Positions 31,193 to 59,805 of a stretch of DNA of 64,000 nucleotides are shown here, in pieces. The stretch comes from Fusobacterium varium (GTDB taxonomy: Bacteria > Fusobacteriota > Fusobacteriia > Fusobacteriales > Fusobacteriaceae): the NCBI GenBank assembly GCA_900637705.1, contig LR134390.1, positions 2,418,001 to 2,482,000 on the forward strand, read 5' to 3'. How positions within the stretch are numbered: position 1 is the stretch's first letter; the number at the start of each line of letters is the position of its first letter. The notes beneath the pieces were generated by a model. The model made no database searches. It was not told where the DNA came from and saw only the letters and a program-made list of their open reading frames with translations. The position numbers and the translations under genes were made by a program.

Positions 31193-32728
31193 TTATTTTT
31201 TCATTAATTTTTCTAATTTATTTTTTACAACATGTACTTGAGGTCCTATTACTACCTGAAGATTTGTATCATCTAATTTTACTACTGCTATTGCTCCAGT
31301 TGCTTTTATCTCATCTGAATCTACAACAGACATATCTTTTACAACCATTCTAAGTCTTGTAATACAGTTATCTAAAGAAACAATATTATCTTTTCCACCT
31401 AAAGCTTTCAACATTCTTTCTTCGTCATATCCACCTAATTTTACATTATCTCCTTCAGTAATTACTTCTCTTCCTGGAGTTTTTAAATTAAATTTTAGGA
31501 TTGCATATTTAAATACAGTATAATATACTGCAAACCATACAGCTCCAACTAGAAGAACTAAATACCATTTTGTTCTTGTTCCTTGTAATACTCCAAATAC
31601 TAGAAAATCTATAAGATTTCCATCAGTATTCCCAATAGTTACTTTTAATATTCCCATCATCATAAATCCAAGTCCAACCATTATACAATGGAATATATAT
31701 AAAACTGGTGATAGGAAAAGAAATATAAATTCTAATGGCTCTGTTATTCCACCAATTACACAAGCAACAAGTCCAGATGCAAGAAGTCCTTTTATTTTCT
31801 TTCTATTCTCAGGTCTTGCAGTGTTATATATTGCTAAAGCTATTGCTGGAAGTCCAAACATATATGATGGCATTTTTCCTTGAGAAAGGAATTTTGTTAC
31901 ATTAGGATCAAGTATTCCATCAGCAAACTGCTTATAGAATATTGTAAGTGCTCCTGAAACAGTTTCCCCATTTACTATTGCCTCTCCTCCAGCTGGTGTA
32001 AATCTTATCATAGCAACTAATATGTGATGAAGTCCAAATGGTCTTAATAATCCTTCTCCAGCTCCAAATAGGAATGGTCCAAATGCTCCTGCTTTCCCTA
32101 TCATCTTTCCAACACCCATAATCATATTATTGAAGAAAGGCCAGATAAATGGAATTAATAGACTAACTACTCCAACTATTACTGCTGTAGCAATAGGTAC
32201 AAATCTTGCTCCACCAAAGAATGCAAGTGCATCAGGAAGCTTTATTTCACAATATCTATCATGTATCTTATAAACAATTATACCAATTAAGACTCCTCCA
32301 AGAACTCCAATATCAATACTTTGGATACCAAGAACCATAGATTGTCCTGCTGCTTTCATATTTTCAGGTGTAGCTAAAGTTCCTGTAGCCTTTAAGAAGA
32401 AATTAACAGATAAACTTGACATAGCAAAACCAACATATCCTGAAAATGCTGCTACTCCTTTATCTTGTCTTGCAAGTCCTAAAGGTATAGCCATTGCAAA
32501 CATTACTGGTAAATTTGAAAATGCAAATGAACCTATTGTAGCCATAAATTCAAAGAATACTTTTAAAATTGGATTCTTTAAAAATGGAAGTATTTCTGCT
32601 GTTACTGAACTTGCAAATGAACTTCCTATTCCAAGCATAATACCACAGGCTGCTAATAATGATACTGGCAGCATAAATGTTTTTCCTAATCCCTGAAAAA
32701 ATTCCCAAAAACTAACTTTTTTATTCAT
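31193..32728 (-). CDS. malX: PTS maltose/glucose-type EIICB component
   Basis: 511-residue PTS permease, EIIC then EIIB. The EIIC domain occupies about residues 1-420 (FWEFFQGLGKTFMLPVSLLAACGIMLG, FSGYVGFAMSSLSVNFFLK, the FGLHHILVAMIRFTPAGGEAI segment and ITEPLEFIFLF). The EIIB domain at the C-terminus has phospho-cysteine C455 in LDNCITRLRM. No EIIA is attached, so it relies on another protein's EIIA. The two-gene context with malY supports the MalX name. The upstream gene is a frameshifted PRD regulator that would be its expected activator. Confidence 0.92.
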   Translation of the reverse strand: MNKKVSFWEFFQGLGKTFMLPVSLLAACGIMLGIGSSFASSVTAEILPFLKNPILKVFFEFMATIGSFAFSNLPVMFAMAIPLGLARQDKGVAAFSGYVGFAMSSLSVNFFLKATGTLATPENMKAAGQSMVLGIQSIDIGVLGGVLIGIIVYKIHDRYCEIKLPDALAFFGGARFVPIATAVIVGVVSLLIPFIWPFFNNMIMGVGKMIGKAGAFGPFLFGAGEGLLRPFGLHHILVAMIRFTPAGGEAIVNGETVSGALTIFYKQFADGILDPNVTKFLSQGKMPSYMFGLPAIALAIYNTARPENRKKIKGLLASGLVACVIGGITEPLEFIFLFLSPVLYIFHCIMVGLGFMMMGILKVTIGNTDGNLIDFLVFGVLQGTRTKWYLVLLVGAVWFAVYYTVFKYAILKFNLKTPGREVITEGDNVKLGGYDEERMLKALGGKDNIVSLDNCITRLRMVVKDMSVVDSDEIKATGAIAVVKLDDTNLQVVIGPQVHVVKNKLEKLMKK

Positions 32729-48469: not shown

Positions 48470-51400
48470 TTAGAACTTGTATCCTATTCCTGCTCCTACT
48501 ATCCATTCACCTTTTGCTCTATTTTTACCTGTTCCATTGTGTGAATCTCTTTCCACATTGTAGCTTCCTTTTACATCAAACAGGATTCCACTTTCAAGTT
48601 CAAGTGCATACTTAGCATTAAGTCCTATGCTTTGTTCATTTTTATGAGCTACTAGGATATCAAAGTCAGTTGCATTTTCTCCTTTAAATCTTCCTGTGAT
48701 GTTCTCTTCATCTGCCCCAGTAAGAAGTCTTGTATAGCTTACCCCTGCTGATAGCGTACTTTTTCCCTTTTCATGAGGGATTACTTTTTTAAGGTCTACT
48801 CCCACTTTTGCTGCTGTATAGTCAAATGTTTTTGAATCTGTTTCTATTGCTAATACCTTGCTTCCTTCATCTGCGCTATCTTGCTTGATATATGTATATG
48901 ACAGTGTTCCGTATGGTTCTAAGAACAGGTTTTCTCCTATGTTATGAGAATATCTTCCATTTAGATAAATATCATATGTCATATCTGAATATTTCTCACT
49001 GTAGCTGTGTCCTCCCAATGTTGCTCTATTAGCATCATATTCTGAATATTGAATTCCTGCTCCAGCTTTCAGTGTAAGGTTTCCTCTGTAGTTTTCTGCA
49101 AAAGCACCTATATATCCACTGTTTCCTTTTACCTTTGACATTGGAAGTTTAGCTTCGCTTCTGTTTCCACCTACTGTTACTCCCAATGATACATTTTCTG
49201 AATATCCATATTTACCCAGGGCATAAGCTCCAGTAAGCTTCATATCCACATCTACATCTGCTGTACCTGTATCAAAACCATGATAATTCTGTCCATAATA
49301 GCTGTCTTTAGTTCCTCCATCAGTATGAGTCAATCCACCCATTATCAACCACTGATTTAAATTTGGTTTGAACTGGTTCTCTGTGATTATATCTCTAAAC
49401 ATTCCAGCTGATTTTCTTGAAAGTTCGCTTGAAAATGAGTATGGAGTTTCTGTGTAGATACTTCCTAAATAGCTCAAAAGATTTTTAAGTTGCTCTTCAT
49501 CACTCATGTTTTCATCATAATTATTTCCTAATTTTCCATTAGAAGAAATGAGTACTCTTAAAGCATTTAAGTTATCATCTGTACTACTGTATATCCCTTT
49601 GTAGATATTGTTTAATGCTTCATATCTATGACTTTTTCCCATATTTTCTGGTCTATATATTTCATTTAAATTTCCATATGCTCCTAATATAACACTTACT
49701 TTATCATTAACTTCATATCCATCTATTATAGAGCTAGTTTTAAAATATAGATTTCTTAATTCAATATTTTCCATATCAACATAGATTTTTTTCCCAATTC
49801 CATTTGTTATGAATCTCAAAGTTCCTGCTGTTCCTTCTCCCTGTATAACCATTTCATTTTTATTGCCTGAAAAAGCATGAGTAGCTTTTGGTATAAATTC
49901 TTCACCTACCTCTACAGTTTCTTCTGTGTTCTTAAGTCTAAGGTTTAAAGTTCCTGTTTCAGCTATTGTTACTTTTTCTGTACCAGTTACTTTTACATCT
50001 TCAAAGAATGTCACATTGTTATCTATATTCATATTTGTAAATCCTGTTATATTATGAAGTATATTCATGCTTGCAGCTTCAGATATGTTATTTGATTTAT
50101 TCAAATTGCTGTTAACTTTTCCATATAGATTGAGAGTATTGTTCTCTCCTGTTGCTTTCATCTCTCCATTAACTTTTGCATTTCCTTCTAAAACAAGAAC
50201 ATTATTTTCCCCTTCAACTGTTATGGCTACATTATCTTTTCCCCCTGTATTTACTATTGATTCTCCCTTTAGAGTGAGAGTATTATTTTCTCCTTTAATC
50301 TCTATTGTTGCTACCTCTCCATCTTCTGCTGCTCCTCCATTTGCTATTGTGTTGTTGAGAATAAGGGCTGAATCTTTACTATCCATAACTACTGCTGTTT
50401 CATAGGCATTGATTATAGAGTCTGTTATTTGATTTCCTGTTCCTGAAACCTTTAAAGTTTCATCTTTTCCATTTAATATTGAATTATCATATTCTCCTGA
50501 TTCTCCTTCAAGTACAAAACTTACTGTTGAAGTTGCACTTCCTGAATCTCCATTTAATGTAGCATTTTTTATTGTCATATCTTTAACTATTTCTTTTCCA
50601 TCTTCAGTGTATCCTACTACTACTTTTATAGAATCATCACTTAATTTCTCGGTACCTACAGTTATTTTTCCATCTTTTCCAATGTATAAACCATAATTCT
50701 TTTCAGTACCTATAGTACCCTTAATTACTGAGTCCCCTTGTGTTGCAAGTATTCCATAGTTGTCTACTGTACCTATAGTTCCACTATTATTCTTTATAGC
50801 ATTATCTTTTCCATAAATAACTCCTGTATTTGTTATATCTCCTATTTCCATTTTATACTTAGAACCCGACTTAGCATTATATATTCCAACACCAGAACCA
50901 CTTATTATTCCTGTATTTGTTATATTTTCTATTTCCCCATCACTAGTAGTAGAAAAATCATTATTAACACTATATATTCCAGAACTAGAAGCAGAACCTG
51001 TACCAGAACCATAACCACTTATTACTCCTGTATTTGTTATATTTCCTATTTTAGCTAACTCATTATTATATATTCCATTATTATATATTCCATAACCATT
51101 ACCCGAACCAATACTGCTAGTAGTATCATCACCATAACCACTTATTACTCCTATATTTATTATAGCTCCAATATTTGTTATGTCTTTTATTTCGGCTCTT
51201 GGATTGTTATATATTCCATAACCATTACTACCACGCCTACCAGTACCATAACCACTTATCAGTCCTGTATTTTTTATGTTTTGTATTTCTGCACCTGAAT
51301 CGTTATATATTCCATGACCAGAAGCAGTACTGCCACTATCATTAACATCATCAGCAAAACCACTTATTGTTCCTGTATTTGTTATGTTTTGTATTTCTGC

Positions 51401-52036
51401 ACCTGAATCGTTATATATTCCATGACCAGAAGCAGTACTGCCACTATCATTAACATCATCAGCAAAACCACTTATTGTTCCTGTATTTGTTATGTCTTTT
51501 ATTTCAGCACTTGAATTGTTATATATTCCATAACCATAACTAGCAGCATTACCATTATAAATACCTGAGCCACTTATTACTCCTGTATTTTCTATATTGC
51601 TCATTTTAGCTGAATTATATATTCCATAACCAGAACTAGAACTAGAAGTATCCCTCATTATTCCTATTATTGAACCATTATTTACAAAATTCACATCAGT
51701 CAATTCACCACTTAATCTAAGTCCATAACTTAAATTCCTACCATAGTTCCCACCTTCCCCATTAGATAACAATATCATATTGTTTGTATAAGTTTTAGTA
51801 TCCTTATCCCATTTATTATCGCTATATGGATTTTCTTTCTCCCACTTTCCATCATCATCAGTAGTTGCAGTTGTATTAAATTCTATTGCTCCACTATCTC
51901 CTTTTATCCAAAGATAATTATCCTCTCCCATTACTGCTGTACATGACAATAGAAATCCTACTACTGCCCCTATTGTTATATTTCTTCCTCTTCTTTTATT
52001 TCCCCTTTTTACTGCCTTCATAATCTTTTCAATCAT
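48470..52036 (-). CDS. Type Va autotransporter adhesin-like protein
   Basis: 1,188 residues. The basic leader (IEKIMKAVKRGNKRRGRN) runs into the hydrophobic ITIGAVVGFLLSCTAVMG, the extended signal common in fusobacterial autotransporters. The passenger has repeats of the form ITNTGxISGxG...GIYNxxxAEI, predicting a beta-solenoid, then a less regular stretch (TLNLYG, TGTEKVTIAETGTLNL). The last ~280 residues are an autotransporter beta-barrel ending in VGAGIGYKF, with terminal phenylalanine. Function is unknown; adhesion is the usual guess. GGGGAGG lies 6 bases before the ATG at 52036; the TTG 15 bases earlier overlaps that site. Confidence 0.92.
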   Translation of the reverse strand: MIEKIMKAVKRGNKRRGRNITIGAVVGFLLSCTAVMGEDNYLWIKGDSGAIEFNTTATTDDDGKWEKENPYSDNKWDKDTKTYTNNMILLSNGEGGNYGRNLSYGLRLSGELTDVNFVNNGSIIGIMRDTSSSSSGYGIYNSAKMSNIENTGVISGSGIYNGNAASYGYGIYNNSSAEIKDITNTGTISGFADDVNDSGSTASGHGIYNDSGAEIQNITNTGTISGFADDVNDSGSTASGHGIYNDSGAEIQNIKNTGLISGYGTGRRGSNGYGIYNNPRAEIKDITNIGAIINIGVISGYGDDTTSSIGSGNGYGIYNNGIYNNELAKIGNITNTGVISGYGSGTGSASSSGIYSVNNDFSTTSDGEIENITNTGIISGSGVGIYNAKSGSKYKMEIGDITNTGVIYGKDNAIKNNSGTIGTVDNYGILATQGDSVIKGTIGTEKNYGLYIGKDGKITVGTEKLSDDSIKVVVGYTEDGKEIVKDMTIKNATLNGDSGSATSTVSFVLEGESGEYDNSILNGKDETLKVSGTGNQITDSIINAYETAVVMDSKDSALILNNTIANGGAAEDGEVATIEIKGENNTLTLKGESIVNTGGKDNVAITVEGENNVLVLEGNAKVNGEMKATGENNTLNLYGKVNSNLNKSNNISEAASMNILHNITGFTNMNIDNNVTFFEDVKVTGTEKVTIAETGTLNLRLKNTEETVEVGEEFIPKATHAFSGNKNEMVIQGEGTAGTLRFITNGIGKKIYVDMENIELRNLYFKTSSIIDGYEVNDKVSVILGAYGNLNEIYRPENMGKSHRYEALNNIYKGIYSSTDDNLNALRVLISSNGKLGNNYDENMSDEEQLKNLLSYLGSIYTETPYSFSSELSRKSAGMFRDIITENQFKPNLNQWLIMGGLTHTDGGTKDSYYGQNYHGFDTGTADVDVDMKLTGAYALGKYGYSENVSLGVTVGGNRSEAKLPMSKVKGNSGYIGAFAENYRGNLTLKAGAGIQYSEYDANRATLGGHSYSEKYSDMTYDIYLNGRYSHNIGENLFLEPYGTLSYTYIKQDSADEGSKVLAIETDSKTFDYTAAKVGVDLKKVIPHEKGKSTLSAGVSYTRLLTGADEENITGRFKGENATDFDILVAHKNEQSIGLNAKYALELESGILFDVKGSYNVERDSHNGTGKNRAKGEWIVGAGIGYKF
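51274..51489. repeat. Two identical 108-bp tandem repeats in the autotransporter passenger
   Basis: Copy 1 51274-51381 and copy 2 51382-51489 appear identical, encoding a 36-residue unit (IQNITNTGTISGFADD... through ...GIYNDSGAE). Further diverged units flank them. Identity at DNA level implies a very recent duplication or gene conversion, so copy number may vary between strains. Confidence 0.85.
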
Positions 52037-52165
52037 ATTTTTCCTCCCCAAGTTTGTTTTTATATATTTTTTATTTAAATTTTTCTTAAATTTTTTTCAA
52101 TTTTTTCCTCCAAAATCCTAATTAAAATTGAAAATTTAAATGTAGAAATTTAGCCAATAACTGAG

Positions 52166-52199
52166 AAAAGTTCCTTTTTATACATAAAAGCGAACTTTT
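52166..52199. promoter_or_regulatory. 34-bp palindrome upstream of the autotransporter (site 1)
   Basis: AAAAGTTC...GAACTTTT outer arms enclose CTTTTTAT-AC-ATAAAAGC; 14 of 16 positions pair. Its right half ATAAAAGCGAAC recurs inverted at 52321-52332. It is 130 bases upstream of the autotransporter start and looks like an operator for a dimeric regulator. Confidence 0.55.
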
Positions 52200-52320
52200 A
52201 GACGCTCTAACCTCCCAATTTTTAATACCTCATTTTTTGGACCCCATTCACCTCCCAAAATTTTTATATTGACTTTTACAAATTTAAAGAGTACAATGAT
52301 AGGGAAAATATAGGGAATGT

Positions 52321-52346
52321 GTTCGCCTTTATGTATAAACAAGAAC
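52321..52346. promoter_or_regulatory. Related palindrome upstream of the autotransporter (site 2)
   Basis: GTTCGCCTTTAT-GT-ATAAACAAGAAC, a weaker dyad related to site 1. The complement of its left half matches site 1 at 11 of 12 positions. The sequences after both sites also resemble each other (AACTTTTTAG... and ...TTTTAATAC...ATTTTTT), so a segment of ~70 bases has been duplicated. Confidence 0.5.
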
Positions 52347-52401
52347 TTTTTAGCAAAAAGCTCGTTTTTTCAACCTTTTAATACTCTATTTTTTCTCCCT
52401 C

Positions 52402-52638
52402 TTAATGCTTCATCAGATACTCCTCTATCCTTGTCATTCTTTCTTCAATCCTGCTTATTCCCTCAGTTAATGTTTTTATATTTTCTATTCTGAATTTTTC
52501 TGCAAAGATTCTTTCTTTTTTGCACTCCCCTTTATCTATTTTTTTCTCAAACAATGATAATGTATACCTGTGGTATGCCAGAAAAAAAGTTCCCGTTGTA
52601 GTTATTATTTTAAAAAACAGTTCTGCATTATTTATCAT
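52402..52638 (-). CDS. Small membrane protein, holin-accessory-like
   Basis: 78 residues: a hydrophobic N-terminal helix (AELFFKIITTTGTFFLAYHRY) then a charged coiled coil (FEKKIDKGECKKERIF, EGISRIEERMTRIEEYLM). It resembles small one-helix phage proteins near holins, but I cannot name a family. GGAGGAGG lies upstream of the ATG at 52638; it overlaps the end of the preceding gene by 11 bases. It is the last gene before the autotransporter. Confidence 0.65.
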   Translation of the reverse strand: MINNAELFFKIITTTGTFFLAYHRYTLSLFEKKIDKGECKKERIFAEKFRIENIKTLTEGISRIEERMTRIEEYLMKH

Positions 52639-52810
52639 TTTTCTCCTCCTCCAGTTTTCCAAATACTGCCTCGTATATCTTGTCATCTATTTTACTTTCT
52701 GTTCTCTTTACCAATTCTCCCAAAGCTGTTATCACTACTTTTTCCATTGCCTTTGTTCCAAACCATCTGCTGATAAAATATTTTAAAAATTTTATTATTA
52801 TTGTTTTCAT
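52628..52810 (-). CDS. Small phage-holin-like protein
   Basis: 60 residues. An amphipathic/hydrophobic N-terminus (TIIIKFLKYFISRWFGTKAM) is followed by VVITALGELVKRTESKIDDK and a charged tail. The pattern ALGELVKRTxSKIDDxI recalls phage LLH-type holins or their partners. GGAGG lies 9 bases before the start. It overlaps the next gene by 11 bases. Confidence 0.6.
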   Translation of the reverse strand: MKTIIIKFLKYFISRWFGTKAMEKVVITALGELVKRTESKIDDKIYEAVFGKLEEEKNDK

Positions 52811-52848
52811 AAATTTTCCTCCATTTTTTTATTTTTGGGTAAAAAAAA

Positions 52849-52870
52849 GACTGCAGCTTCTGCCACAGCC
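52849..52870 (-). terminator. Terminator between the coiled-coil gene and the holin-like genes
   Basis: GACTGCAGC/GCCACAGCC stem (nine pairs, several G-U on the transcript), 4-base loop, followed on the minus strand by T8. It separates the 52879 gene from those downstream, so they need read-through or their own promoter. Confidence 0.7.
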
Positions 52871-52878
52871 TCTTTTCT

Positions 52879-53193
52879 TTAAGCTTCTGGTGTATTATTT
52901 TTTACATAAAACTGGTATGCTGCCAGTAGGCTTCTGTACTTGTCTATTGTTTCCAAAGAAGTTGTGTAAGATTTAATTTCCTTCTCTGCGCTTTCCTGCC
53001 AGTCTTTGTATGACTCATATGCTGAGTTTTCTGGGAACTCCTTTCCTGATTCCACCAATTCTGCTATATGCTCAAGAGTTACTGTTATATCGTCTATATT
53101 TTTTAATATAGCCTTTTCCCTCTTGATTGCATTTTCCACCTTCTCCATTTCTTTTTGAACCACTGCTAATATTACTTGATTTTCTCCTGCCAT
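52879..53193 (-). CDS. Coiled-coil protein of unknown function
   Basis: 104 residues, almost entirely helical (VVQKEMEKVENAIKREKAIL, LEHIAELVESGKEFPE, YKDWQESAEKEIKSYTTSLE). No signal peptide and no family recognised; phage accessory proteins look similar. AGGAGG lies 7 bases before the ATG at 53193; the frame opens farther up without support. Confidence 0.55.
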   Translation of the reverse strand: MAGENQVILAVVQKEMEKVENAIKREKAILKNIDDITVTLEHIAELVESGKEFPENSAYESYKDWQESAEKEIKSYTTSLETIDKYRSLLAAYQFYVKNNTPEA

Positions 53194-53377
53194 TTTACTG
53201 CCTCCTGTTTTATTTTTGCCATACGTATATGATACTCTCAATGCGCATAACAATCCAGTGCACCAATGTGGCTGTTTGTGTATGTATGTGTATTAGCATT
53301 TTATTCCATTGTTTTCTCAATCTTTTTTTCTTCCCCTGTGTGTATTATTTATATCTTTATATTCTTTTATTATCTTC

Positions 53378-53821
53378 TTAATAAATACTATCTTCTGATG
53401 TCTGCAAAAAACCAGCAATGGTTTTACCAGTAATGGTTTCTTCAGTACTGGCTTTCTCAGTAACGGCTTTCTTATCATCGGTTTTTTCTTCTTTTTCAAT
53501 GTTTTCAGGAGTGAATATTAACCTTTTCCCTTTAAATTTTCCCTTGCTTCTTTCCTCCACCAGTTGTATCAATTTTAACTCCTCAAATATTTTTAATCCT
53601 TTAGGTATCCAGGCTTTACTTAATCCACTGTAATTAGCTATTGTTTCAACATAGCATTTTATATCTCGACCGTTAAAATCACTGTAGATTTCAGTGAGAG
53701 TCAGATGTAGATTTCTAAACCTGTCAAGTTCCTTTCCCTCATACCGACATCTAAATAATTGCAATACCTTTTCCTCCTGCTGACAAAATGGCTGATTCTC
53801 TGTTTTTCCCTTGTTTTCCAT
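53378..53821 (-). CDS. Winged-helix-like DNA-binding protein with pentapeptide-repeat tail
   Basis: 147 residues. Residues ~15-110 resemble a winged-helix domain (HLTLTEIYSDFNG, TIANYSGLSKAWIPKGLKIFEELKLI, LVEERSKGKFKGKRLIF), as in phage or plasmid replication and regulatory proteins. The tail is a run of five-residue units (EKTDD KKAVT EKAST EETIT GKTIA) from a 15-base DNA repeat. AAGGAG precedes the start. It heads the block before the autotransporter and is the best local candidate to bind the palindromes there. Confidence 0.6.
   Translation of the reverse strand: MENKGKTENQPFCQQEEKVLQLFRCRYEGKELDRFRNLHLTLTEIYSDFNGRDIKCYVETIANYSGLSKAWIPKGLKIFEELKLIQLVEERSKGKFKGKRLIFTPENIEKEEKTDDKKAVTEKASTEETITGKTIAGFLQTSEDSIY
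53415..53490. repeat. 15-bp minisatellite in the winged-helix gene
   Basis: About five diverged 15-base units (pattern on the plus strand close to CAGTAMYGGYTTTCT) encode the pentapeptide tail of the gene. Copy number of such a repeat can change by slippage without shifting frame. Confidence 0.55.
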
Positions 53822-54174: not shown

Positions 54175-54392
54175 AATTACCCACCGTAAGCAAAAATAAC
54201 CAACACGGTAAATTTAACTAACGGCTGATGATTTTTTTTACTAAAATATTTTTTTTATTTTTATAATCATGTTAAAAAATTCTACTTTTTTATATATTTA
54301 AATTATTAAAAATTATCTACCATAACAAAAATCACCCACAAGGTAAATTTACCTCATGGGTGATAATTTTTTACTAAAATATTTTTTATTTA
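54175..54392. repeat. Two ~80-bp direct repeats, the second a terminator
   Basis: Copy A ~54175-54258 and copy B ~54311-54392 share GGTAAATTTA and the run TTTTTTACTAAAATATTTTTT. In copy B, ATCACCCA (54331-54338) pairs with TGGGTGAT (54357-54364) around the palindrome AGGTAAATTTACCT, a strong stem that can terminate the minus-strand EIIB gene. Copy A has lost pairing at the outer arms. The rest of 53822-54404 is very AT-rich; I see no convincing gene there. Confidence 0.7.
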
Positions 54393-54404: not shown

Positions 54405-54794
54405 CTATTTATTTTTGTTTCTTATGTCATTTATTTCTTCAGCTAATTTTTCAGCCTTCAATCCTATAATAATATGGATTTTAGTATCAGTAAGTTTTAT
54501 AACTTTATGAGCTCCTAAGACAGTTATTCTCTTTTCATCTAATAGAGAACCATCTTTCATTATTACTCTTATTCTTGTCATACAGGGATCTACACTTACT
54601 ATATTTTTTTCTCCACCTAAAGCTTTAATATACAACTTCCCCATTCCTGAAAATTTTTTTTCTTCAAGTTTATCTAAATCAACGCAATTTACTCTCTTCA
54701 CTTTAGTGATTAGTTTATATTTTTTGATAATTATTACTGCTATAATTATTATAATTATCCCAATTATTTCATACAACCACTTGGTCGACTCCAT
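54405..54794 (-). CDS. Orphan membrane-anchored PTS EIIB (glucose/MalX type)
   Basis: 129 residues: one N-terminal transmembrane helix (YEIIGIIIIIIAVIIIKKY), a linker, then a complete glucose-family EIIB domain (GKLYIKALGGEKNIVSVDP, CMTRIRVIMKD, VLGAHKVIKLTDTKIHIIIG). The phospho-cysteine is C71. No EIIC is attached or nearby. It may pass phosphate to a C-only permease, or act as a regulator or sensor of PTS state. It has its own promoter and a GGGAGGGAG ribosome site. Confidence 0.8.
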   Translation of the reverse strand: MESTKWLYEIIGIIIIIIAVIIIKKYKLITKVKRVNCVDLDKLEEKKFSGMGKLYIKALGGEKNIVSVDPCMTRIRVIMKDGSLLDEKRITVLGAHKVIKLTDTKIHIIIGLKAEKLAEEINDIRNKNK

Positions 54795-54827
54795 AACTCC
54801 CTCCCTTATTAATTAATCATCACCTAT

Positions 54828-54856
54828 AATATAACGATTTTAACAAAAGTTGTCAA
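54828..54856 (-). promoter_or_regulatory. Promoter of the orphan EIIB gene
   Basis: Minus-strand TTGACA (54851-54856), 17-base spacer, TATATT (54828-54833). The -35 box lies just after the mnmA stop codon, so the EIIB gene can be transcribed separately from the operon upstream. Confidence 0.8.
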
Positions 54857-54857
54857 G

Positions 54858-55898
54858 TTATGATATTATTCCACCACCTAGTACCAAATTTTTATAATAT
54901 AATACCAAATGCTGTCCAGGAGCAGTTTGTGGAGTTTCTTCATCAAACTCAAAAAAAAGTTTTTCATTTTCAAATAAAACTTTTCCACTTGTACCAAAAC
55001 TTGAAAATCTAGGTCTTCCAATAATATTTTTATTTAAAATATCAGTTATTTTTACAGCTAATTTATACTTTTTTAATTCTACTCTCTTTTTGTATAATTC
55101 CTCATATTCTCCAATAGTTATTTCATTTTTTTCTTTATCAATTTTTGTTATGAAGTATGCTCTTGGAAGTTTTAATCCCAATCCTCTTCTTTGACCAATT
55201 GTATATAATTGATATCCCTCATGTTCTCCAAGAATTTTTCCATTTTTATCTATATATTTGCCTTTTTTTATCTTATTACCTAAATTTCTTTTTAGAAATT
55301 CTATATACCCTTCTTTAGCAAAACATATTCCTTGACTGTCTTTTTTATTATATACTTCCAAACCAATATTTTTTGCTATATCTCTTATCTGTTTTTTTTC
55401 ATAAGAATGAAGTGGAAATAAAAGTCTTGAGATTTTATCATTATCTAATCTATACAACATATAACTCTGGTCTTTTCTAGGATCATAAGAAACTTTCAAA
55501 AGACTTGTTTTAAATTCTTCTGAATATTCCACAGAACTATAATGTCCTGTAGCTACAAAATCTGCATTCTCTTTATCTGCTATTTCAAAAAGAATTTTCA
55601 TTTTTACTTTTTCATCGCAAATCACACATGGAGAAGGAGTTATTCCTTGAGAATATCCCTCTAAAAAATCATCTATAACTTCTTTTTGAAACAACTCTTC
55701 AATATCTATTATTTTATGTTCTATTCCAAGAAAATGACATATTCTTTGAGCAGCTTTTATCTCATCTTTAAGAGATTCTTCTTTTTTATGATTTAATGTT
55801 ACACCTATAACTCCATATCCCTCACTTTTCAAAAGATATGCTGCTACAGAAGAATCAACTCCTCCACTCATTCCTATTACTACTTTTTTTCTACTCAT
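54858..55898 (-). CDS. mnmA: tRNA-specific 2-thiouridylase
   Basis: MnmA thiolates U34 of Lys, Glu and Gln tRNAs. P-loop GMSGGVDSSVAAYLL at the N-terminus, catalytic cysteines in TPSPCVICDEKVK near residue 90 and in DSQGICFAKEGY near 190, plus GHYSS and the C-terminal TAPGQHLVLY barrel. 346 residues is normal. The ATG overlaps the channel gene's stop (ATGAGTAG). Confidence 0.95.
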   Translation of the reverse strand: MSRKKVVIGMSGGVDSSVAAYLLKSEGYGVIGVTLNHKKEESLKDEIKAAQRICHFLGIEHKIIDIEELFQKEVIDDFLEGYSQGITPSPCVICDEKVKMKILFEIADKENADFVATGHYSSVEYSEEFKTSLLKVSYDPRKDQSYMLYRLDNDKISRLLFPLHSYEKKQIRDIAKNIGLEVYNKKDSQGICFAKEGYIEFLKRNLGNKIKKGKYIDKNGKILGEHEGYQLYTIGQRRGLGLKLPRAYFITKIDKEKNEITIGEYEELYKKRVELKKYKLAVKITDILNKNIIGRPRFSSFGTSGKVLFENEKLFFEFDEETPQTAPGQHLVLYYKNLVLGGGIIS

Positions 55899-58879: not shown

Positions 58880-59805
58880 TTAAATATGAAGTACTTTTTT
58901 GATTATATCTGATCTTCTTATCATTCCATAATATTTTCCTTCATCTAGAACATATAATCTTGTAAGTCCTTTATTTACCATAATAAAACATATCTCCATA
59001 ATAGGAGTTTTTCTATCTATTTTCACTCTTTCATCTACTCTGTATAATTTTTCAATTGTAGTTGTAGTTTCATTTACCAAATATTCCTCAAAAGGTTCTC
59101 CTACTGTCAAGAAATTAAGGTCTCCCATCAAAGAAAGATAATCAGGCATACCAAAATCAATAAGTTCTCTTTCAGTTATTTCTCCTAAGAAGATTCCATC
59201 TTTATCTACAACTGGAAGACCACTTATTTGCTCAAGTATTAGTCTTTTTGCTATCTCTTCCAAAGTATTTTCTGGTGTAGCAGGTTCTATATCTGGACTT
59301 AATACATCTTCTGCTATTATTCTATGATCTATTTCAATATTAGATTCTTGAATATATTCAACTATCTTATTAGGATTTTTTCCTCTTTTATCTTTTCTAA
59401 GAGATTTTTTCTTTTTAAAGCCATTTTTGAAACAGCACTCATTACTTTTAATATATTTTTATTTTTCAGAACATCTGAAATAATTAAAAATACCAGCTTT
59501 ACTTTATCAGTTCTGTGTGTCGCTGCGATTTCTACTTCTATAGGTTCCTCTAAAACAGCAACTGATACAATAAAATCATTAAAATTTTCTATTCTAGCAT
59601 GAGGTATTGCTATTCCATTTCCCATACCTGTTGAGATCTCTTTCTCTCTTTTTATTACTGATTTTACAATTACATCTTTTAACTCATTTATTTTCTTATC
59701 TTTCAAAGACAATCTTTCTATCATCTCTGTGATAATTTCTTCAGGATTTTTTCCCTTTAAATCAGTAAAAATAAACTGTGGATCTAAATAACTTGAAAAC
59801 TTCAT
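58880..59805 (-). CDS. PTS EIIA(Ntr)-type protein with C-terminal CBS pair, frameshifted
   Basis: The first part (59362-59805) is an EIIA domain of the nitrogen/fructose type with active-site H69 in GNGIAIPHARIEN; the second (to 58880) has two CBS domains (ILEQISGLPVVDKDG, LTRLYVLDEGKYYGMIRRSD). They sit in different frames. One extra T in the run 59376-59381 joins them (EEKNPNKIVEYIQESN...) into one ~308-residue protein. The gene lies between two paralogous ArsB/SLC13-type permeases, 19 and 44 bases away, so it probably controls both according to PTS phosphorylation and a CBS-bound nucleotide; this is inference. Confidence 0.82.

Follow-up and report, generated by a model that had tools for sequence, protein, structure and literature searches.

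EI and HPr are the established source of phosphate in the phosphotransferase system (PTS), and glucose/GlcNAc-type EIICB proteins (PtsG, NagE, and MalX) carry, behind their last membrane helix, a linker and an EIIB domain with a CxTRxR motif. Mutants of Escherichia coli indicate that the two arginines of this motif are needed for phosphate transfer to the sugar and not for its receipt from EIIA. In E. coli, EIIB-Glc reportedly holds the repressor Mlc at the membrane (sequestration; work on it is cited in PMC11393339). The same organism possesses a split form, GlvB (NF007255, 161 aa), in which a helix, a linker, and an EIIB domain constitute a separate protein; its gene adjoins that of its EIIC, and the TPGR linker is retained. 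An orphan PTS EIIB, MG_129, has been described in Mycoplasma genitalium, with a predicted contact to FtsY and a single crosslink; like MPN268, it belongs to a Mycoplasma genome without a single EIIC or EIIA protein (PMC13047044). In titles and beginnings of abstracts on orphan or stand-alone EIIBs, Mlc–EIICB interaction, and the Fusobacterium PTS, no paper describing the protein considered below was found.

The window, i.e. the whole stretch of DNA analysed, comprises 64,000 nucleotides of contig LR134390.1 of Fusobacterium varium. At 54405..54794 (minus strand, as for all parts of this gene and its flanking elements below), it contains a gene of 129 codons from ATG to stop, for which a reading of the sequence without database searches (hereafter the sequence-only reading) had described a glucose-type EIIB attached to one transmembrane helix, with a cysteine at position 71. 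This description agrees with the ORF and with its match to PF00367 (E 8.7e-13; 47.9 bits, cut-off 27). The longer EIIB model TIGR00826 gave 44.8 bits, slightly below its cut-off of 45.75, and no model in the NCBIfam scan scored above its own cut-off; the GlvB model NF007255, for example, gave 41.9 bits against a cut-off of 321. The top NCBIfam matches were the ends of NagE- and PtsG-type EIICBs, with alignments that span the helix (profile positions 363–474 of TIGR01998). A phmmer search of solved structures likewise aligned residues 3–125 with E. coli EIICB-Glc (PDB 9hnp and 8qsr; E 1.3e-9), including its last membrane helix. Cys71 lies within DPCMTRIRV (codons of residues 70–72, 54579..54587).

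The N-terminal membrane helix (approximately residues 8–23; 54726..54773), which was called by reading the sequence as a single hydrophobic stretch followed by basic residues, resembles the last helix of EIICBs, the alignment with EIICB-Glc starting at residue 3. Structure models from the single sequence and from a three-row alignment were poor (mean pLDDT 62.4 and 49.2, respectively) and carry no claim here; the former shows, at low confidence, a helix at residues 3–32. There was no PF02378 match to indicate an EIIC transport domain in the protein, and only 64 bases separate the start codon from the stop of the preceding gene. The protein thus looks like an EIICB of which only the last EIIC helix, the linker, and EIIB are present.

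A profile search of the window's genome yielded 10 matches to PF00367 and 12 to PF02378. Each of nine EIIBs has a glucose-type EIIC as its counterpart (one of these EIICs is split into two matches), and the two leftover EIICs adjoin PF02302-type EIIBs; the 129-aa protein is the sole unpaired glucose-type EIIB. MalX in the window (31196–32728, minus strand; TIGR02004, 785.6 bits) has its own EIIB, as had been stated. The same arithmetic holds in all six genomes that carry the gene (see below): the EIIC:EIIB counts, made by hand from the PF00367 and PF02378 tables, are 9:9 in the window's genome (G000), 7:7 in G026, 8:8 in G027, 7:7 in G028, 6:6 in G029, and 3:3 in G025, a genome that is 71% complete, with the orphan as the one left over. 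The two extra EIICs of G025–G028 were taken as the same two kinds from their length and score, and G029, which has no EIIC beyond its six pairs, still keeps the orphan EIIB.

The sequence-only reading had regarded the cognate permease as unknown and had suggested a search for EIIC-only permeases. The first point stands and can be sharpened, since each glucose-type EIIC that PF02378 detected, in this genome and in the other five carriers, comes with its own EIIB. A role as the partner of an unpaired EIIC is thereby rejected. In the window's genome, the cysteine is retained in each of the nine other EIIBs, so that none obviously needs rescue, and complementation of a dead EIIB is rejected as well. 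No EIIC gene was found near the orphan in approximately 7–9 kb on each side in G026–G028 or in the shorter stretches of G025 and G029, which run into contig ends. The window's genome also encodes a free-standing EIIA-Glc.

Several other PTS or permease genes of this genome read as more than one ORF. A type 2 PTS EIIA plus CBS protein is present in the window as two ORFs (58880–59263 and 59362–59805, minus strand) and is a single ORF of 308–310 aa in several relatives (Pfam on the G028 copy); this may be a real break or a sequencing error. The same is seen in another two permease genes (G000:C1:1684307–1685334 and 937844–938985), each divided into separate ORFs, and the counterpart of the latter is a single frame of 634–640 aa in G026–G028. 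Together, these breaks hint at frameshift errors or decay in the window's assembly.

Full-length close relatives of the orphan EIIB (68–100% identity) were found in 6 of 98 genomes of the phylum (G000, G025, G026, G027, G028, and G029), all belonging to the window's genus, of which 12 genomes were included. In the remaining six genomes of the genus, there is no such close relative, and the place after mnmA is taken by a different gene, which we read as encoding malic enzyme. In all six carriers, the EIIB gene is preceded by mnmA (in G025 by its last codons). The orthologues that the sequence-only reading had proposed to look for thus exist as a stand-alone form of 127–129 residues located 3' of mnmA in half of the genus. 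A relative was not detected in viral contigs, and plasmid and phage collections contained only distant EIIBs with <60% identity.

The mnmA-side stretches of 52 further genomes of 97 were also surveyed by blastp of ORFs of at least 60 aa. EIIB directly follows mnmA in five of them (G026, G027, G028, G029, and G018); the G025 gene, which is overlain by an antisense ORF in this survey, was read separately from its gap sequence, and some distant stretches (e.g. G030 and G047) are probably centred on an mnmA paralogue. G018 belongs to another genus, and its EIIB has 104 residues and a GTG start, is located between mnmA and ligA, and is soluble, lacking the membrane helix. It has an LDLD segment in common with the orphans, from which a gapless alignment extends into EIIB. 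In a tree of EIIB domains (43 rows, 75 columns), it joins the six orphans with weak support (87/45) and on long branches. Position and the DLD segment are the main indications that the G018 gene may be an orthologue.

Other EIIBs encoded as separate proteins were also found. A protein of 250 aa from Vibrio phage 2.275.O (NVP2275O_345; L148 1515–2267; 349-kb record MG592671.1) combines several hydrophobic stretches near its N-terminus with a complete EIIB of the glucose type (PF00367, E 4.7e-15), and the annotation shows no EIIC up to 2 kb away; judged from this match, it is a phage-borne stand-alone EIIB. The glvC-glvB-like stretch of E. coli type in the record of Campylobacter phage A11a (L149; MG065691.1, marked UNVERIFIED; NF007255, 376 bits) is most likely bacterial contamination. 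In G092, a 182-aa protein (L086 6795–7343) contains two tandem EIIB domains with a cysteine in each, and no EIIC was noticed in the fetched stretch; in G091, a 160-aa stand-alone EIIB (L087 7886–8368) has two hydrophobic N-terminal segments. Both come after an ORF with a similar start in the two genomes, possibly a DnaN-like gene.

The ORF at 54858..55898, taken to be mnmA in agreement with the sequence-only reading, is the conserved upstream neighbour, and the EIIB start codon is located 64 bases past its stop. Directly past this stop lies a sigma-70-like promoter, TTGACA-17-TATATT (54828..54856), matching 11 of the 12 consensus positions. The probability of a site with at least 11 matches in the 64-base gap is approximately 0.0018 under a Markov model of local composition, and the window contains six of them when both strands are counted. 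In the gaps of all six orthologues, TTGACA and the bases around it are identical, whereas G025 and G029, as a pair, differ from the other four carriers over much of the remaining gap. The near-perfect promoter that had been noted behind mnmA is a conserved element. A hairpin resembling an intrinsic terminator is present 3' of the gene (54331..54364). Promoter and hairpin are consistent with a one-gene transcript of EIIB. The gene sits in housekeeping surroundings and not in a sugar operon. In G026 and G027, it is followed by genes for proteins of 301 and 538 aa and then by ligA and secA; in the window, an autotransporter-like gene and small ORFs (48470–53821) replace this order, so that other DNA interrupts the conserved arrangement.

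As its alignment with the C-terminal part of EIICBs takes in their last helix, the protein probably descended from an EIICB, and the sequence-only reading had named a truncated EIICB relic in relatives as the finding that would speak against a genuine orphan. The data contradict such a relic. The length is 127–129 residues and the reading frame is intact in all six orthologues, Cys71, Thr73, Arg74, and Arg76 are invariant (the conservation of the cysteine having been singled out for checking), and dN/dS is 0.05–0.23 across 15 orthologue pairs (pairwise NG86), dS being near saturation for the distant pairs. In none of the 52 mnmA-side stretches was a full EIICB found at the same place and in the orientation of the EIIB. 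G020–G022 do contain an EIICB of 536 residues, but it is located one gene farther away, is encoded on the other strand, and groups with L002, which is kept elsewhere in the window's genome (clade support 88/66). Purifying selection, constant length, the conserved promoter, and synteny thus lead us to reject a decaying EIICB relic, a reading to which we assign almost no probability. The orphan that had been proposed is an intact gene with its own promoter, as the orthologues, the selection on them, the conservation of the promoter, and the exact EIIC:EIIB pairing elsewhere all indicate.

Behind the helix, the protein has the juxtamembrane segment KRVNC(V/I)DLDK(L/V)E(E/D)KK (residues 33–47; 54654..54698), which is conserved in all six orthologues and in which KRVNC(V/I)DLDK is fixed except for the V/I position. 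This segment occupies the place of the TPGR linker of EIICB paralogues; TPGR is present in all eight C-terminal EIIBs of the window's genome and is absent from the orphan.

On the basis of these features, we tentatively favour a functional, membrane-tethered EIIB without an EIIC of its own, which would be phosphorylatable and would report the state of the PTS or bind a partner; the function is a proposal. It probably serves the sugar system as a sensor or helper and does not represent a broken transporter. Phosphate from PEP would pass via EI and HPr to the free-standing EIIA-Glc and on to Cys71, while the single helix would keep the EIIB domain at the inner side of the membrane. Since every EIIC is paired, the phosphorylation level of the orphan would follow the overall flux through glucose-type systems, and in one phosphorylation state the orphan would bind a partner protein and retain it at the membrane, in the manner of E. 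coli EIIB-Glc and Mlc. That the protein senses the phosphorylation state or partners a regulator, as the sequence-only reading had suggested, is a plausible proposal; phosphorylation, partner, and sensing are what we infer from the locus. As to candidate partners, the window's genome encodes ROK proteins, some with N-terminal segments resembling winged-helix or helix-turn-helix domains. A BglG/LicT-type antiterminator as partner was rejected, as the genome contains no match to CAT_RBD (PF03123).

Some observations count against sensing. The retention of Arg74 and Arg76 fits transfer to sugar at least as well. No partner gene is encoded beside the orphan, the relative in G018 lacks the helix, which means that tethering is not universal, and the lack of the gene after mnmA in the other half of the genus makes the role dispensable or lineage-specific. 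The arginines, invariant in all six orthologues, also speak for an alternative, a permease subunit acting in trans, in which the tethered EIIB would be a shared or spare phosphate donor to the EIIC domains of one or more EIICBs, e.g. when the EIIB of these permeases is in short supply. As recipients, 6–9 glucose-type EIICBs are present in each of the five carriers with more complete genomes and 3 in the 71%-complete one; the helix of the orphan corresponds to the last EIIC helix, and GlvB, a split form of the same layout, adjoins its EIIC. We consider this account possible but rather unlikely, given that the other EIIBs of the genome keep their cysteine, that the stretches around the gene contain no EIIC, and that the TPGR linker has been lost. 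Sensing is preferred over service in trans mainly for the housekeeping location, the conserved promoter of the gene, the lost linker, and the absence of an EIIB-less EIIC.

Roles outside sugar transport were also weighed. An adapter of the kind proposed for MG_129, whose predicted contact is the SRP receptor FtsY, might be suggested by the relative in G018, which directly precedes ligA and secA, but mnmA-ligA-secA also occurs without EIIB in G016, G037, and G038, and this synteny is accordingly weak. MG_129 is likened to the orphan by its description (PMC13047044), and Mycoplasma is far from Fusobacterium. Such moonlighting appears very improbable. A broader conjecture, improbable though somewhat less so, is that the protein founds a family of tethered orphan EIIBs with a single origin next to mnmA in Fusobacteriaceae (anchored by a helix in Fusobacterium, lacking it in G018), that KRVNC(V/I)DLDK would hold a dedicated partner, perhaps the Sec/SRP or the neighbouring ion-transport machinery, and that the PTS state would thereby control a process other than sugar uptake.

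An EIIB maintained by selection, with its own promoter and no EIIC, would represent the signalling half of the PTS separated from transport. Should the protein accept phosphate and bind a regulator, as the favoured reading has it, it would offer a clean example from nature of a membrane-located reporter dedicated to PTS phosphorylation, and MG_129 and other orphan EIIBs could be approached with the same hypothesis. Among described systems, it resembles PtsG, NagE, and MalX in its last membrane helix, linker position, and EIIB with CxTRxR, but lacks their EIIC domain and TPGR linker. It shares with GlvB the arrangement of helix, linker, and EIIB in a separate protein, and differs from it in gene neighbourhood and in the linker. 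The E. coli EIIB-Glc/Mlc pair, in which an EIIB at the membrane could retain a ROK repressor according to its phosphorylation state, serves as the working model; it is an analogy, EIIB-Glc being, unlike the orphan, part of a transporter. Orphan EIIBs as such were already known from MG_129, and the layout from GlvB, whereas the locus beside mnmA, the linker segment, and the lineage-wide conservation set the present protein apart.
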